Of a stretch of 43,542 bases of DNA, positions 24,661 to 31,708 are shown one piece after another. The notes beneath the pieces are model-generated. The model was given only the letters and a program-made list of their open reading frames with translations. It searched no databases and had not been told where the DNA came from. A program made the translations under genes and the position numbers. Origin of the DNA: Flavobacteriales bacterium (lineage in GTDB: Bacteria > Bacteroidota > Bacteroidia > Flavobacteriales > Flavobacteriaceae); assembly GCA_027066995.1 (NCBI GenBank), contig JAMOMQ010000067.1, positions 1 to 43,542 on the forward strand, in the 5' to 3' direction. Numbering within the stretch: position 1 is the stretch's first letter; each line of letters opens with the position of its first letter.

Positions 24661-25227
24661 ATGAAAAAATATATAATTTTAATATTACTAATAGGCGGTT
24701 TGACTTCTTGTAATCACCATCAAGAAAAAACCTATTGGGATTATATGGGAGAATTTGATATGTATTACTCGGAAGCTTACGAATCTTATGCGCCCAATCC
24801 AAATTTTAAAGATGGTAAAACATTGCAAAAACCGGTAGCCGGCACCATTTCCAGAGAATACATGCCTTATCCTTTTAAAGATAAGTTTGCTGATAAAACC
24901 AAAGCCGGCCAATTGCTTAAAAATCCGTTACAACCAACCAAAGAAAATTTGGAAAGAGGTAAAGTAAAATATGATACTTACTGTGCCATATGTCATGGTA
25001 AAAACGGAAAAGGCGACGGCCAGTTAACCAAATTGGTTAAAAACGGGAAAAAATTATATCCGGCACCACCGGCAGATTTAACCGCCGGTTATATTAAAGC
25101 CAAACCCGATGGTGAGATTTTTCATGTCATAACCATGGGATCGGCTGTTATGGGTGCACATGCATCGCAAATTAAACCCGATGACAGATGGCGAATTGTT
25201 CTTTATGTCAAGAATAATTTAAAGTAA
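24661..25227 (+). CDS. actE: Alternative complex III subunit E, monohaem cytochrome c lipoprotein
   Basis: The 188-residue protein is a lipoprotein (lipobox LTSC, Cys17) with a single haem site CAICH near residue 108, followed by GKNGKGDG as in class I cytochromes c. Candidate axial methionines lie in ITMGSAVMGAHASQI, and the last helix DDRWRIVLYVKNNLK is typical of the fold. In alternative complex III, ActE passes electrons from the ActA haems towards the soluble acceptor or oxidase. It follows actD by 26 bases and precedes actF by 21 bases. Confidence 0.94.
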   Translation: MKKYIILILLIGGLTSCNHHQEKTYWDYMGEFDMYYSEAYESYAPNPNFKDGKTLQKPVAGTISREYMPYPFKDKFADKTKAGQLLKNPLQPTKENLERGKVKYDTYCAICHGKNGKGDGQLTKLVKNGKKLYPAPPADLTAGYIKAKPDGEIFHVITMGSAVMGAHASQIKPDDRWRIVLYVKNNLK

Positions 25228-25248
25228 AATAATTTTAAAACTACAACA

Positions 25249-26478
25249 ATGAAAAAACAATTCATATTTTCAAAAAAATTACAGACAATCAGCTTGATTT
25301 TAATGGTGATTGGTTTGATTGCGGGTATTTTGGCTTATATGGCTGATACGAATAGATTTTGGGCTAATATCTTAATGAGCAATTATTTCTTTTTGTTATT
25401 AGCTTTAGGTGCTGCTTTTTGGATGTCTTTGCAATATATAGCCGAAGCCGGTTGGTCTGCTGCTTTTAAGCGTGTTCCGGAAAGTTTTTCTTATTATCTG
25501 GTACCGGCCTTTATTTTTATGTTAGCTTTGGTATTTTTCGGATTGAAATATGTTTACCCTTGGGCCAATCCGGAAGGACATATTGAGGACTTTAACAAAT
25601 ATCCCGAGTTTAAAGAAATACTGGAAGTCAAAGAACCTTACTTAAATAAAAATTTCTTTATTATACGCACCTTAATATTTTTCGTAGTTTGGTTTTTGAC
25701 CACTGCTTTGTTACGTAAATTTTCTAAAAAAGAAGATAATGATAAAGCACATGCTTTAAAATGGTTTGAAAAAAGCCGGTTCTTTTCAAAAGTTTATATT
25801 TTTGCTTTTTCTTTGACTTTTATATTCGCCGGTTTTGACTATTTAATGTCTTTGGAACCGTTTTGGTATAGTACGCTTTTTAGTATTAAAGAATTGATCT
25901 CAGGCTTTTTTCATGCCTCGGCCTTGATTATTTTGATAGTTTATTTCTTGCATAAAAAAGGCTATTATCCATTTATGAACTCATCGCATTGGCATGATTT
26001 CTCAAAATATCTTTTCATGGGATCGGTATTATTTGCCTATGCATGGTATTTTCAATATATGTTGATATGGTATGGAAATATTCCTGAAGAAGCAGAACAT
26101 TATTTCTTGCGACGTTTTCATTTTTCACAAAGTTTATTTGTGTTAAATATTGTTATCAATTTCTTTATTCCGTTTTTGGTTCTTTTACCTAACAAATTGG
26201 CCAAAAATCCTAAAGTATTATTAATCATGTCCATAACTATTTTGATCGGTTTCTTCCTTGATGTTTATTTATCCGTATTTCCGCCGCTTGTTCATACTTT
26301 TGCAGGTGTAGGTGAACATATTCACCCTGTTTTCGGATTGTATGAAATAGGCATTTTCTTAGGATTTGCAGGGTTGTTTATGTTTGTTGTCTTTAGAAAT
26401 ATGGCTAAACGTAAACGTATTTTACCGGTCAATCATCCTTATATCGAAGAGAGTTTATTACATCATAACGCTCATTAA
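25249..26478 (+). CDS. actF: Alternative complex III subunit F, NrfD-like membrane protein
   Basis: ActF is the second NrfD-like polytopic subunit, here 409 residues with about ten hydrophobic helices. The first is LQTISLILMVIGLIAGILAY. Characteristic stretches are the ALGAAFWMSLQYIAEAGWSAA helix near 55-75, the FIFAGFDYLMSLEPFWYST segment near 190 and the FPPLVHTFAGVGEHIHPVFG loop near 345. In Rhodothermus and Flavobacterium complexes ActC and ActF form a pseudo-symmetric pair and ActF may take part in proton translocation. This is the last gene of the operon here: a strong terminator follows at 26498-26530, and no cytochrome oxidase genes are attached. Confidence 0.94.
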   Translation: MKKQFIFSKKLQTISLILMVIGLIAGILAYMADTNRFWANILMSNYFFLLLALGAAFWMSLQYIAEAGWSAAFKRVPESFSYYLVPAFIFMLALVFFGLKYVYPWANPEGHIEDFNKYPEFKEILEVKEPYLNKNFFIIRTLIFFVVWFLTTALLRKFSKKEDNDKAHALKWFEKSRFFSKVYIFAFSLTFIFAGFDYLMSLEPFWYSTLFSIKELISGFFHASALIILIVYFLHKKGYYPFMNSSHWHDFSKYLFMGSVLFAYAWYFQYMLIWYGNIPEEAEHYFLRRFHFSQSLFVLNIVINFFIPFLVLLPNKLAKNPKVLLIMSITILIGFFLDVYLSVFPPLVHTFAGVGEHIHPVFGLYEIGIFLGFAGLFMFVVFRNMAKRKRILPVNHPYIEESLLHHNAH

Positions 26479-26973: not shown

Positions 26974-27447
26974 TTGAAGATTAAATTATTAATGCTTGGC
27001 AAAACGGATCATGTCGCTGTTCAAAATTTAATGGATATTTATATTAAAAGAGCTCAATCTTATGTGACCGTTGAGCCTGTTGTAATTCCGGATATCAAAA
27101 ATACCAAAAATATAACCGAAGCACAACAAAAGCTTAAGGAAGGAACAGCTATTTTAAAACATATCAATACATCGGATTTTGTTGTGTTGTTAGATGAAAA
27201 AGGTCGCGAATATACCTCTAAACAATTTGCAGATTTTTTACAAAAAAAAATGATAAGTGGTATTAAGCAATTGGTATTTGTTATTGGTGGTCCTTATGGA
27301 TTTTCCGAGGCGGTTTATAGTAGGAGCAATCACAAAATAGCTTTGTCACAAATGACGTTCTCACATCAATTGGTTCGTGCTATTTTTACGGAACAACTTT
27401 ATCGCGGATTTGCTATCTTAAATAATCATCCTTATCATCATGAATAA
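26974..27447 (+). CDS. rlmH: 23S rRNA (pseudouridine1915-N3)-methyltransferase RlmH, TTG start
   Basis: RlmH methylates pseudouridine 1915 of 23S rRNA in helix 69 of assembled ribosomes, using S-adenosylmethionine. The 157-residue protein has the normal size and the SPOUT-class C-terminal knot: FVIGGPYGFSEAVYSR, then IALSQMTFSHQLVRAIFTEQLYRGFAI, ending in HPYHHE, which is nearly invariant in the family. The start is TTG at 26974. It gives the expected MKIKLLMLGKTD beginning, whereas the first in-frame ATG (26992) would remove the first beta-strand. It sits 5 bases after the SPOR gene. Confidence 0.97.
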   Translation: MKIKLLMLGKTDHVAVQNLMDIYIKRAQSYVTVEPVVIPDIKNTKNITEAQQKLKEGTAILKHINTSDFVVLLDEKGREYTSKQFADFLQKKMISGIKQLVFVIGGPYGFSEAVYSRSNHKIALSQMTFSHQLVRAIFTEQLYRGFAILNNHPYHHE

Positions 27448-27469: not shown

Positions 27470-28837
27470 ATGAAAAATCGATTTCCGACCTTTTGGCATT
27501 TAATGGCCATTCTTTTATTTTTTATAGTATTTTCTATGCCATTTGGTATTTTGCAAGTGGTGATGCCCAAATCGTTAAGTGCCTGGATGATGCTTTTGGG
27601 GTATGTCATACCTATGACTTTGACCATTTGGGCCACACGTAAAGCTTTTAATAAAAAGGGTACTTTTAGTTATAAGCCGGCTTATTGGTCGTTGTTTCCA
27701 TTGGTTGTGGTCGTTGCTTTTGCCTTTTTGGTAGTAGGAGAATTTACAATTTTTTTGTTGCCGGAACCTGCCGGTTTTTGGAAAAAATTGTTTGATATGC
27801 TAAATAATACCATGAAAGAAGTGTTTAATAGTCCTGTAGCCGGTTTTTTAATGGTTGCCGTGGCAGCGCCTGTTTTGGAAGAAACACTTTTTAGAGGCGT
27901 AATATTAAAAGCATTGCTAAAAAAATACCAACCTTTTAAAGCCATTTTGATTTCGGCTGTAGCTTTTGGAGCTTTTCATATGAATCCATGGCAGTTTTTA
28001 TATGCCACGGTTTTAGGGTTATTATTAGGTTATATGTATTGGAAAACCAAAAGTTTGTTTTATCCCATCATCATACATATGATATTGAACGGTACCGCTT
28101 TTGTTGCAGCCAGGTTTGTCGATATGGAGGCGACGGAAGGTATGGTAGAGCAATTATCAGGAAAAGATTTGCAACAGTTTTTGTTTTTGGTAGCTTTAGC
28201 ATTGGGTATTATTGTTGCGGCTTATTATTATTTTGAAAGATTTTTTGCCAATCAACCCAAAGATATAGTCTTGGCAACCCAAAACCGGCATAAAATTAAA
28301 GAAATAGAGAAAATATTACCCGCAAATTTGCAGTTAAAGTCATTGGAAGATATCGGATTTAAGAGCCAACTTAAAGAAACCGGACAAACATTAGATGCCA
28401 ATGCGCTACAAAAATTAAGGCAAATTACCATACCTTATGATGTTGATGCCATAGCCGATGATACAGGTTTGGAAGTAGCTGCTTTAAACGGTGCTCCCGG
28501 TGTATACAGTGCCCGCTATGCCGGTGAACAAGCTACTTATGAAGACAATGTTAAGAAACTTTTACAAGAATTGGAAGGCGTAGAAAACAGAGAAGCACAG
28601 TTTAGAACCGTTGTAGCTGTCAGTCAAGGCGCTAATGAACAATTATTTGAAGGCATTGTCAAAGGGCGTATTGCTACCGAACCTCGCGGCAATGGAGGTT
28701 TTGGCTATGATTCGGTCTTTATTCCCGATGGCTATAATCAAACTTTTGCCGAAATGGGGGAGGTAGAAAAAAATAAAATCAGTCATCGTGCCAAAGCACT
28801 ACAAGCATTGAAAAAGTTATGGGAAACCAAAAAATAG
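27470..28837 (+). CDS. Fusion of a CPBP (CAAX-type) intramembrane protease and RdgB/HAM1 NTP pyrophosphatase
   Basis: This 455-residue frame joins two complete proteins. Residues 1-258 are a polytopic CPBP protease: the helices carry the active-site motifs LEETLFRG (Glu137-Glu138 and Arg142), FGAFHMNP and HMILN. Residues 264-455 (192 residues, full length for RdgB) are a non-canonical purine NTP pyrophosphatase that removes dITP/XTP from the pool. Its motifs are ATQNRHKIKEI, ADDTGLEVAALNGAPGVYSARYAG, RGNGGFGYDSVFIP and ISHRAKAL. The junction is only FANQPKDIVL. No ATG occurs near it in any frame, so a separate rdgB start is not hidden there. The RdgB part should face the cytosol, tethered to the membrane. 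All catalytic motifs of both halves look intact. The gene is 22 bases after rlmH and overlaps the DUF481 gene by 19 bases. Confidence 0.93.
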   Translation: MKNRFPTFWHLMAILLFFIVFSMPFGILQVVMPKSLSAWMMLLGYVIPMTLTIWATRKAFNKKGTFSYKPAYWSLFPLVVVVAFAFLVVGEFTIFLLPEPAGFWKKLFDMLNNTMKEVFNSPVAGFLMVAVAAPVLEETLFRGVILKALLKKYQPFKAILISAVAFGAFHMNPWQFLYATVLGLLLGYMYWKTKSLFYPIIIHMILNGTAFVAARFVDMEATEGMVEQLSGKDLQQFLFLVALALGIIVAAYYYFERFFANQPKDIVLATQNRHKIKEIEKILPANLQLKSLEDIGFKSQLKETGQTLDANALQKLRQITIPYDVDAIADDTGLEVAALNGAPGVYSARYAGEQATYEDNVKKLLQELEGVENREAQFRTVVAVSQGANEQLFEGIVKGRIATEPRGNGGFGYDSVFIPDGYNQTFAEMGEVEKNKISHRAKALQALKKLWETKK

Positions 28838-29586
28838 TTTTAAAAACACTCATTTTTGCGGCTTTGTTACTTGTTAGTTTTGAAGCACAAGCTCAAATTC
28901 TAAATATAGAATCTTTTCGAATAAAAACAGATACAACCGGATGGGCCGGTTATGTGGGATTAAATATATCGCTGACCAAAAATACCAAACAATTAACCAA
29001 TATCGGTAGTAAGGCTCATGTGCAATATAAAAGTGGCAAAAATTTAATTTTACTGTTGTCCCAATATAATTTATTGTCATCGGGGCAAACCGATTTGATA
29101 GACAAAATGGTTTTGCATTTAAGGTATAATTATAAATTGACACCAAAGATTGCAACCGAATTTTTCTTGCAAGGACAAAAGAACAGTATTTCCAAAATTG
29201 ATTTTAGAGGTTTGGCCGGTAGTGGGTTGAGATTCAAACTCTCTAATCAAAAAAAGTTTAAATATTATTTAGGTTCTACCGCTATGTTTGAATATGAAAG
29301 GACGGCATTCGGAGATACAGAAAGACATTGGCGTTGGAGTAATTATTTTTCCTTTACCGTTTTTCCTGCCGATAATTTTAGTATTGTCAGCACAAGTTAT
29401 TTTCAGCCTGTTTTTACAAATTTTTCCGATTATAGAATATCATCTCAAAATGCCATTTATTTTAAAATGACGACACGCTTATCCTTTAAAACTGCTTTCA
29501 ATTATAATTATGACAGCACACCGGTTATGGGTGTGCCCAAGGAACAATACAATTTATCATCAGGCATTGTTTACAATTTTAAATAA
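28819..29586 (+). CDS. DUF481 (YdiY-like) outer-membrane protein
   Basis: The 255-residue protein has a signal peptide (to about residue 26, EAQAQ) and amphipathic strands throughout: GWAGYVGLNISLTKNTK, HVQYKSGKNLILLLSQYNLL, a RHWRWSNYFSFTVFPADN strand, and an aromatic C-terminus GIVYNFK. These fit the DUF481 beta-barrel family, whose E. coli member YdiY is acid-inducible. The role is unknown. The ATG lies within the last codons of the CPBP-RdgB gene, and its stop overlaps the pabA start by one base (TAATG), so it sits inside a translationally coupled run. An alternative is a generic outer-membrane barrel without a specific family link. Confidence 0.75.
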   Translation: MGNQKIVLKTLIFAALLLVSFEAQAQILNIESFRIKTDTTGWAGYVGLNISLTKNTKQLTNIGSKAHVQYKSGKNLILLLSQYNLLSSGQTDLIDKMVLHLRYNYKLTPKIATEFFLQGQKNSISKIDFRGLAGSGLRFKLSNQKKFKYYLGSTAMFEYERTAFGDTERHWRWSNYFSFTVFPADNFSIVSTSYFQPVFTNFSDYRISSQNAIYFKMTTRLSFKTAFNYNYDSTPVMGVPKEQYNLSSGIVYNFK

Positions 29587-30152
29587 TGAAAATAGTCATC
29601 ATAGATCATCAAGATTCTTTTACCTATAATATAGTTGAATTAATCCGGCAAGCTGTTGATTTAGAACCGGATATTATACCTGCAGATGCCATTAATTTGG
29701 ATGATTTATCAAAATATGATAAAATAATCTTATCACCCGGACCGGGATTGCCACGTGATTTTGTCAATATAAAACATATTTTGGACCGGTATAAAACCAG
29801 CAAGTCCATTTTGGGTATTTGTTTGGGGCATCAAGCTATTGCCCAATATTTCGGTAGTAAATTAGAGAATTTATCTTTTGTGATACATGGTCAACCAAAA
29901 CAAATTGAAGTGGTGAATCAAAACAAACTTTTTTATAAAATTCCATTGGTTTTCACAGTAGGTTTATACCATTCATGGGTTGTCTCAAAAGTGGATCTTG
30001 CCCAAGATTTACAAATCGATGCTTTTTCTACCGACGGTATGATTATGGCATTGTCGCATAAGCAATATAATATTTACGGCGTGCAGTTTCATCCGGAATC
30101 TTACATTACGGAATATGGTCGGCAATTGATTAAAAATTTTGTCTATGCTTAA
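29586..30152 (+). CDS. pabA: Aminodeoxychorismate synthase glutaminase subunit (PabA/TrpG type)
   Basis: The class I glutamine amidotransferase releases ammonia from glutamine for the partner synthase. The 188-residue length is standard. The triad is visible: Cys79 in GICLGHQ, and His near 169 with Glu two residues later in FHPES. DHQDSFTYNIVELI at the start and ILSPGPGLP near 55 are further markers. PabA and TrpG cannot be separated by motif alone. The adjoining pabB and pabC point to p-aminobenzoate synthesis for folate. There is no trp operon here, but the subunit may serve both pathways. Confidence 0.93.
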   Translation: MKIVIIDHQDSFTYNIVELIRQAVDLEPDIIPADAINLDDLSKYDKIILSPGPGLPRDFVNIKHILDRYKTSKSILGICLGHQAIAQYFGSKLENLSFVIHGQPKQIEVVNQNKLFYKIPLVFTVGLYHSWVVSKVDLAQDLQIDAFSTDGMIMALSHKQYNIYGVQFHPESYITEYGRQLIKNFVYA

Positions 30153-31125
30153 TGTTAATCGGAATTTTATCAACCGGTTTAATAAAGCCGTAGCTGCCGC
30201 TGAAGCCTTTGTCTTTTTAATAGATTTTGAAGGTAAGAAGCCTATTCTTTTTAAACGGGATGAGGCTGCCACCAAAGGTTTATGGTTTCAAACACCGGAA
30301 TATACCAACAGTCCTGTCGAAACCATGATACTGCAAAAATCTGCCGGTATAAAAAGTAAACCGGTGAGCATTGATTATTATCAAAAAGCTTTTGATTTGG
30401 TGCAAAAGCATTTAAAAAACGGTGATACTTATTTGCTCAATCTAACCATGCCAAGCCGTATTGAGACCAATTTAACTTTAAAGCAAATTTATCAAAGGGC
30501 ACAAGCACCGTATAAAATTTTATTTCGTGACGAATTTGTTTGTTATACACCGGAATCTTTTATAAAAACCGAGGGGAATACAATTATGACTTATCCCATG
30601 AAAGGTACCATTAACGCTGATATGCCCAATGCCGAAAATCATTTGTTGTCTGATAAAAAAGAAACCTATGAACATCACACTATTGTCGATTTATTACGCA
30701 ATGATTTGGCACAAGTTGCCACAGGCATTGAAGTGCGAAAATTTAAGTATATAGATGTTATACAGACCAATACCGGTAAGTTGTTGCAAATGAGTTCCGA
30801 AATTTCGGGTGTGCTGCCTTCCGGGTGGCGTAAGCATGCTGCAGAGATGTTTTTAAAACTTTTACCGGCCGGTTCGGTTAGTGGCGCACCAAAAAAGAAA
30901 ACTTTGGAAATTATCCAATCTGCAGAAAAAACGGACAGAGGTTATTATACCGGCATATTTGGTTATTATGACGGACATAATTTTGATACGGCCGTGTTAA
31001 TTCGGTTTATCGAAAAGAAAGGTGCCCGGTTGTATTATCACAGTGGTGGCGGTATTACGGCTTTAAGCCGGTTGACGGATGAATATCAAGAACTAAAACA
31101 AAAAATTTATGTTCCCATTAATTGA
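30145..31125 (+). CDS. pabB: Aminodeoxychorismate synthase component I (PabB), short form
   Basis: PabB converts chorismate and ammonia to 4-amino-4-deoxychorismate. The 326-residue chain covers the chorismate-binding domain: TYPMKGTINAD (the Lys of the PIKGT-type motif is the PabB nucleophile and distinguishes it from TrpE), the EHHTIVDLLRNDLAQV helix, the GSVSGAPKKKTLEIIQ loop and the DTAVLIRF / YYHSGGGITALS region near the C-terminus. It lacks the N-terminal subdomain of E. coli PabB (about 450 residues), a shortening usual in Bacteroidota. The frame can be opened 2 codons upstream at a TTG (30139). The ATG at 30145 is preferred; it overlaps pabA by 8 bases. It overlaps pabC by 17 bases. 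Confidence 0.94.
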   Translation: MLNVNRNFINRFNKAVAAAEAFVFLIDFEGKKPILFKRDEAATKGLWFQTPEYTNSPVETMILQKSAGIKSKPVSIDYYQKAFDLVQKHLKNGDTYLLNLTMPSRIETNLTLKQIYQRAQAPYKILFRDEFVCYTPESFIKTEGNTIMTYPMKGTINADMPNAENHLLSDKKETYEHHTIVDLLRNDLAQVATGIEVRKFKYIDVIQTNTGKLLQMSSEISGVLPSGWRKHAAEMFLKLLPAGSVSGAPKKKTLEIIQSAEKTDRGYYTGIFGYYDGHNFDTAVLIRFIEKKGARLYYHSGGGITALSRLTDEYQELKQKIYVPIN

Positions 31126-31708
31126 AAGTATAAAGGTAGTTGACGGCGTATTGCAAAATATTGAATATCATCAACATAGGTTTGAAGCTTCTTATTTCAA
31201 ATTATATAAGCGGCTGACCGATATTTTGTTGGAAAATGTCATAGATATTCCCCAAGATTACCGGCAAGGTCTGGTTAAATTACGTTTTTTATACAATGAT
31301 ACCGATTGTTTTTGTCAATATGACCGGTATAAATCAAAGCCGGTCAAAAGTTTAAAACTCGTATATGATAATCATATTGATTACAGTTTAAAATGGGTTG
31401 ACAGAAAAAAACTCAATGAACTGCATAAACAAAAAGACCAAGCTGATGATATTCTGATTATAAAAAATCAACGCATTACAGACACATCTTTTACAAATAT
31501 TGTATTTTATGATGGAAAAAACTGGGTAACACCAAAATTTCCTTTACTTCATGGAACTGCCAGGGCACGTTTGTTGGCAACCAATAAAATTATGGCAGAA
31601 GATATTATAGTTAATGATTTAAAAAGCTTCACTTCTTTTAAACTCATAAATGCGATGCGTGATTTTGACCAAGCAGACGAGCTGCCAATCCATTCAATTA
31701 TCTTATGA
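31109..31708 (+). CDS. pabC: Class IV aminotransferase-like 4-amino-4-deoxychorismate lyase
   Basis: The product should split aminodeoxychorismate to p-aminobenzoate and pyruvate with pyridoxal phosphate. At 199 residues it is shorter than E. coli PabC (269) but keeps the fold-type IV landmarks. These are ESIKVVDGVLQNIEYHQHRF at the start, a candidate PLP lysine in WVDRKKLNELH, ITDTSFTNIVFYD (the E/D-x-S-x-NI motif) and LHGTARARLL. This short form is common in Bacteroidota beside pabB. The gene overlaps pabB by 17 bases and closes the coupled gene run that begins with the SPOR gene. A branched-chain aminotransferase role is less likely given the neighbours. Confidence 0.85.
   Translation: MFPLIESIKVVDGVLQNIEYHQHRFEASYFKLYKRLTDILLENVIDIPQDYRQGLVKLRFLYNDTDCFCQYDRYKSKPVKSLKLVYDNHIDYSLKWVDRKKLNELHKQKDQADDILIIKNQRITDTSFTNIVFYDGKNWVTPKFPLLHGTARARLLATNKIMAEDIIVNDLKSFTSFKLINAMRDFDQADELPIHSIIL

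Follow-up and report, generated by a model that had tools for sequence, protein, structure and literature searches.

We sought to establish whether a CPBP membrane protease and the nucleotide house-cleaning enzyme RdgB are truly joined in one polypeptide at this locus, and what such a joining could mean. RdgB is normally a free cytosolic dimer, and to our knowledge house-cleaning NTPases in general are regarded as free cytosolic enzymes. The window, that is the whole stretch of 43,542 nucleotides that was analysed, carries on its + strand a gene at 27470..28837 with an ATG start and one open frame of 455 amino acids plus stop. The first-pass annotation had described this gene as a CPBP protease running without a stop into a complete RdgB, and two full Pfam domains in one intact frame bear the description out. 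The Rce1-like domain (PF02517) covers residues 121-208 (E 1.1e-25, profile positions 3-92 of 93) and the Ham1p_like domain (PF01725) covers residues 266-449 (E 1.5e-66, profile positions 1-185 of 186), both far above cut-off. Three parts follow one another on the + strand. The CPBP/Rce1-like part (27470..28249, residues 1-260) has eight predicted membrane helices; in the structure model a junction of about three residues (28250..28258, residues 261-263) separates the last membrane helix from the first strand of RdgB; and the RdgB/Ham1 non-canonical purine NTP pyrophosphatase domain (28259..28834, residues 264-455) is without a start codon of its own.

The same two-domain order was looked for in related genomes, as had been proposed at the outset, and a protein search recovered the full-length fusion in 10 of the 13 genomes of the genus, in open frames of 454-490 codons. 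The nine fusions other than that of the window are 63-74% identical to the window protein. Absence of the fusion from the other three genomes is uninformative, because the locus either sits at a contig end or is missing from the assembly. The G009 contig breaks off 311 nt after rlmH, and its final bases, reading MKKRFPTIRHFAVIFLY, are the beginning of the same CPBP. G003 and G011 gave no fusion match and no rlmH match either (the rlmH test in these three genomes used family PF02590), and the locus seems to be absent from both assemblies. The fact that these genomes are mostly drafts in many contigs speaks for a reading in which the fusion is an assembly or sequencing error, or in which RdgB is translated separately from a hidden start. 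Against this reading, ten diverged species share the same junction, and five of the ten fusion genomes stand under distinct accession prefixes (WFZY, WGBX, JALWLE, JALVEJ and JANTGO). An assembly artefact in the genus is ruled out by these ten diverged genomes.

Start codons around the junction bear on the second half of the same reading. In the window, the stretch from 90 nt ahead of the RdgB ATQN motif to 30 nt past it is free of ATG codons in every frame, and the TTG codons that lie in frame closest to the junction fall at residue 268, in the first RdgB strand (264-268), and at residue 245, in the last helix (231-260). It had been claimed that no ATG lies near the junction and that the in-frame TTG would trim the RdgB core, and the position of TTG 268 within the first strand agrees with this. 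Across the eleven fusions, which comprise the ten of the genus and one from another family (G367, below), a TTG directly ahead of the ATQN motif and within the first RdgB strand is present in five (the window, L127, L128, L131 and L132), which could be taken as a hint of a hidden start. However, codons -14 to -4 before the RdgB motif hold only one candidate start in all eleven, a TTG at -14 in L124, and L125, L126, L129 and L130 have no ATG, GTG or TTG within 18 codons ahead of the motif. Since no ATG, GTG or TTG at the junction is common to all eleven fusions, we reject a hidden RdgB start. We rate error or separate translation as extremely improbable, and the in-frame CPBP-RdgB fusion is confirmed as real. 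No indels occur at residues 232 to 300 among the ten genus members; residues 230 and 231 are missing in L128. A second rdgB elsewhere in the genome had also been suggested as something to look for. A PF01725 profile search of the genome (98.39% complete) returned the fusion as the sole match and thus no separate second copy.

Both halves retain the residues expected of working enzymes of their families. On the CPBP side, E137, E138, R142, H170, H203 and N207 are invariant across the eleven fusions, G367 included; they belong to the EExxxR, H and HxxxN motifs, which, from work on Rce1, we take to be the CPBP catalytic residues. On the RdgB side, T270, N272, K275, D330, D331, F411-D414 and S438-R440 are invariant across the same eleven sequences, in what are presumably the RdgB active-site motifs (T/SxNxxK, DD, GFGYD and SHR); the first G of GFGYD (G410) varies in G367 only. 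The 15 PDB sequence matches all fall in the second half, the best being 3tqu, a non-canonical purine NTP pyrophosphatase (E 2.5e-38). Among the NCBIfam models, the fusion passes TIGR00042 (197.3 bits, cut-off 145.35) and stays under the cut-off of NF011398, the non-canonical purine NTP diphosphatase equivalog (247.7 bits, cut-off 272), and of the remaining listed RdgB equivalog and subfamily models. The window protein thus resembles the RdgB/Ham1/ITPA family (PF01725, TIGR00042) in its full domain, active-site residues and fold, but differs in that its RdgB has no start of its own and is joined at its N-terminus to a membrane domain. With CPBP/Rce1-like proteins (PF02517; Rce1 4cad, SpdC 6u0o), some relatives of which act without known proteolysis, it shares the EExxxR, H and HxxxN residues and a fold match; it differs in carrying a C-terminal enzyme domain and in falling under the NCBIfam cut-offs of all five CPBP equivalogs (MroQ, with 44 of 270 bits, MrtJ, MrtS, Rv0804 and ABC_perm_CPBP). 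Through the fusion, a CPBP group that lacks a named family gains a partner.

An AlphaFold2 model of the fusion, built on an alignment of 36 rows (the window and related-locus sequences), reached a pLDDT of 92.0 and a pTM of 0.88. Structural comparison by VIA-align matched the RdgB half to 4bnq (Z 27.9, 38% identity) and 3tqu (also Z 27.9), and to E. coli RdgB (2q16, Z 26.5; 1k7k, Z 26.3). The first 259 residues matched SpdC (6u0o, Z 12.8) and Rce1 (4cad, Z 10.4), values that helical bundles reach by chance and that come from a match list in which this first part was barely tested; these fold matches agree with the Pfam call. Nine helices are modelled in the first 260 residues, and eight membrane helices are left once helix 103-119 is set aside as non-membrane, which was our own choice. 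The model thereby lends predictive support to the earlier proposal that RdgB would be tethered at the membrane by seven or eight helices. Most of the basic residues (2-4, 57-69, 147-157, 192-194 and 257) fall on the same side as the N-terminus, and an acidic loop precedes the last helix; K34, K105, K106, K116, R215 and K232, on the opposite side, are exceptions to the charge rule. Our reading of these charges by hand over the sequence and the model suggests an eight-helix topology with both termini inside. With its C-terminus in the cytosol, RdgB would be located where its substrates are, and the fusion predicts a cytosolic C-terminus for its CPBP group as a whole.

In the model the last helix runs to residue 260 and RdgB opens with its first strand at residue 264, so that RdgB would sit against the membrane. 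Mean pLDDT is 95, 93 and 86 for residues 251-260, 261-270 and 271-280, and to judge from the model the junction is probably very short and stiff. Judged by eye, several split CPBPs of family f5 (L143, L169 and L209) end about 10 residues or fewer past the last hydrophobic stretch, and those of family f2 end later. The short junction may therefore have been inherited from an ancestor, and for this reason it does not prove that a coupling between the two halves was selected.

Selection on the two halves was compared across 45 genus pairs, at synonymous sites so near saturation that the pN/pS values are rough: 0.33 for CPBP and 0.25 for RdgB, with pN>=pS for no pair in either half. Both halves are under purifying selection. 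The linker stretch 251-266 (16 residues) had a rough pN/pS of 0.59, with pN>=pS in 8 of the 45 pairs, and this faster evolution indicates that constraint on the junction sequence is not strong. Members of the CPBP family can act as proteases, and this background together with the variable junction residues would fit a scheme in which the fused product is clipped close to the junction, whether by the protease domain itself or by another protease, freeing RdgB. The model, however, shows no disordered linker there, no cleavage motif was noticed in passing, and we regard such cleavage as quite improbable.

The origin of the fusion can be approached through relatives in which the two genes are separate. 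Their loci were scanned with HMMs made from both kinds of protein, fused and split. Two of the three f2 genomes (G037 and G052) carry rlmH, CPBP and rdgB as separate genes, one directly after another; in the third, which is 68% complete, no RdgB was found. Family f5, which contains Epilithonimonas and Chryseobacterium and which we take to be Weeksellaceae, has CPBP directly upstream of rdgB in 16 of 20 genomes hand-picked down the ranking, and no CPBP was found beside rdgB in the remaining four. The f5 loci taken for best score or long frame are mostly CPBP-rdgB adjacent as well, but they form a biased set. The match spans both genes with at least one internal stop in 14 of 148 f5 genomes. At the f5 locus L143 a single TAA comes after the end of CPBP, and the RdgB Met follows it immediately in the same frame; a single change would fuse the two genes. 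The first-pass annotation had offered a recent and tolerated stop-codon loss as one explanation. "Recent" does not stand, given that 10 of the 13 genus genomes carry the fusion, and stop loss itself is a plausible origin because in some split relatives the two genes share a frame with one stop between them.

At a cut-off of E 1e-5 and over about 1,500 nt, no CPBP was found beside rdgB at 11 Flavobacteriaceae loci outside the genus, among which L004 has too little upstream DNA for a call, or at 18 loci from other families. By this comparison the genus would either have kept or have regained an arrangement that is mostly absent from its family. It forms its own long branch in the RdgB tree, and in the CPBP tree the join between the genus (g1) and f2 is flagged with a long-branch warning, for which reason we do not claim the genus CPBP as closest to that of f2. 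An upstream rlmH was seen in the genus, in f2 and in G367; near the f5 loci L078, L079, L081, L085, L089, L139 and L141 no rlmH match was obtained, which makes its place in the ancestral operon unsure.

We consider it likely that loss of a stop codon fused the two genes of an old CPBP-rdgB operon and so produced a house-cleaning ITPase that is anchored in the membrane and whose two domains both work, mainly independently of each other. The ancestral operon would have comprised CPBP and rdgB, probably with rlmH in front, and the stop between them would have been lost in the ancestor of this uncultured Flavobacteriaceae genus. The predicted product is one polytopic membrane protein with both termini in the cytosol and the last membrane helix leading almost directly into RdgB. 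Its RdgB domain would hydrolyse dITP, ITP and XTP at the inner membrane face, and its CPBP domain, with residues of the glutamic-protease type, probably keeps a function of its own. Fusion would then fix the co-location and 1:1 expression of the two activities.

The f5 genome G367 provides a probable second origin. Its open frame of 488 codons, from a single assembly, contains both Pfam domains, and G367 is the only fusion carrier among the four genomes of its own genus. The fact that G367 groups with the split-gene genomes G463, G481 and G493 in both the RdgB and the CPBP trees, with starred support, leads us to reject a common fusion event behind g1 and G367; on these trees the CPBP-RdgB fusion probably arose twice. 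No RdgB frame longer than 264 codons occurs outside the genus among the matches listed for 199 family-level genomes (190 with a match), and among those listed for 246 order-level genomes (194 with a match) the long RdgB frames outside the window are in G367 (488 codons) and G375 (320 codons). Within the 148 f5 genomes, G367 alone has a full-length stop-free match; long open frames hinted at further f5 fusions, but the DNA of the 11 such loci that were read shows two ORFs each. Among the matches listed for 395 class-level and 247 phylum-level genomes, ranked such that a full-length match would lead, the window is the only full-length stop-free one, with at most four candidates scored per genome at class level and at most six at phylum level. 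The genome samples at these levels overlap. No viral contig with the fusion was found, and none of 180 matching plasmid records covers 80% of the query. The CPBP-RdgB architecture was not found in searches of open-licence literature, and the passages considered in PMC3814617 describe no rdgB fusion.

RdgB has joined other partners elsewhere. Five genomes of family f43 (G621, G879, G745, G932 and G859; loci L203-L207) encode what reads as a DUF386 (YhcH/YjgK/YiaL)-RdgB protein in all five loci, and Pfam was positive on L206 and L207, the two that were run. At L123:2168-3121 (G375) a DUF2809 stretch that looks hydrophobic precedes RdgB in frame, possibly another membrane-tethered RdgB. These fusions from other Bacteroidota share with the window an N-terminal partner on RdgB, but the partners are different ones, and L123 keeps a Met at the junction. 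The 581-codon frame at L216:1126-2868 (G1059) ends in RdgB after a first part that looks aminotransferase-like, and at L217:644-1879 (G1086) and L219:1858-3270 (G1009) RdgB is followed by about 200 in-frame residues that look similar in the two. Enterococcus faecium has an RNase PH-RdgB protein in one CDS annotated rph (1356 nt); RdgB is the C-terminal part of a two-domain protein there too, but the partner, RNase PH, is a non-membrane, RNA-processing enzyme, and the lineage is another.

These partners bear on the other explanation in the first-pass annotation, a coupling of nucleotide-pool cleaning to membrane proteolysis. In such a functional coupling RdgB, by binding or turning over nucleotides, would regulate the CPBP protease or the protease would control RdgB, the two forming one membrane signalling or quality-control device. 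Adjacency of CPBP and rdgB in two families and the two fusion origins favour some link, and the very short, probably stiff junction of the model would suit it. KomB, which has a role in defence as part of the KomBC complex, shares the HAM1 fold (8zsg, Z 21.9 by VIA-align), and by their entry titles complex structures with dITP have been solved for it. Yet RdgB is a repeated fusion partner, which weakens any inference from fusion to regulation; the other Flavobacteriaceae loci examined lack CPBP beside rdgB, and the upstream rlmH suggests a housekeeping operon. PADLOC models (library of 2023) matched the window protein in no family at E up to 1, so that membership among the anti-phage defence families of that library is rejected. 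We hold coupling to be unlikely. A more specific version, in which RdgB is a sensor whose binding of dITP, ITP or XTP is passed through the stiff last helix to switch CPBP intramembrane proteolysis as an alarm for nucleotide damage or infection, we consider very unlikely; if true, the split operon of the Epilithonimonas/Chryseobacterium family would be its two-protein version. The domain architecture at this locus is real and conserved and has a clear operon-like forerunner, an anchored ITPase being the likeliest product and coupling a minority view. A genus in which a polytopic membrane protein carries the one RdgB that was detected, together with a probable second origin in a family whose two genes are mostly neighbours, amounts to a natural experiment, and a connection of nucleotide cleaning with the membrane becomes testable in laboratory strains.

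The surroundings of the gene are partly conserved. A gene of the SPOUT methyltransferase family at 26974..27447 (+), presumably rlmH, ends 22 nt upstream of the fusion, and BLAST with the protein of this gene as query gave an upstream match at all ten fusion-bearing genus loci, in L127 and L132 only to the gene end at a contig edge. Downstream, a 255-aa protein is encoded at 28819..29586 (+), its ATG lying within the 3' end of the fusion gene in an operon-like overlap of 19 nt. Three overlapping genes follow it at 29586-31708 in the window; they look to us like pabA, pabB and pabC, and L124 and L131 have matches to all three on the downstream side of the fusion, L132 to two of the three. Further upstream, the window holds at 24661-26478 two genes for cytochrome-type and multi-helix membrane subunits, presumably parts of an alternative complex III.
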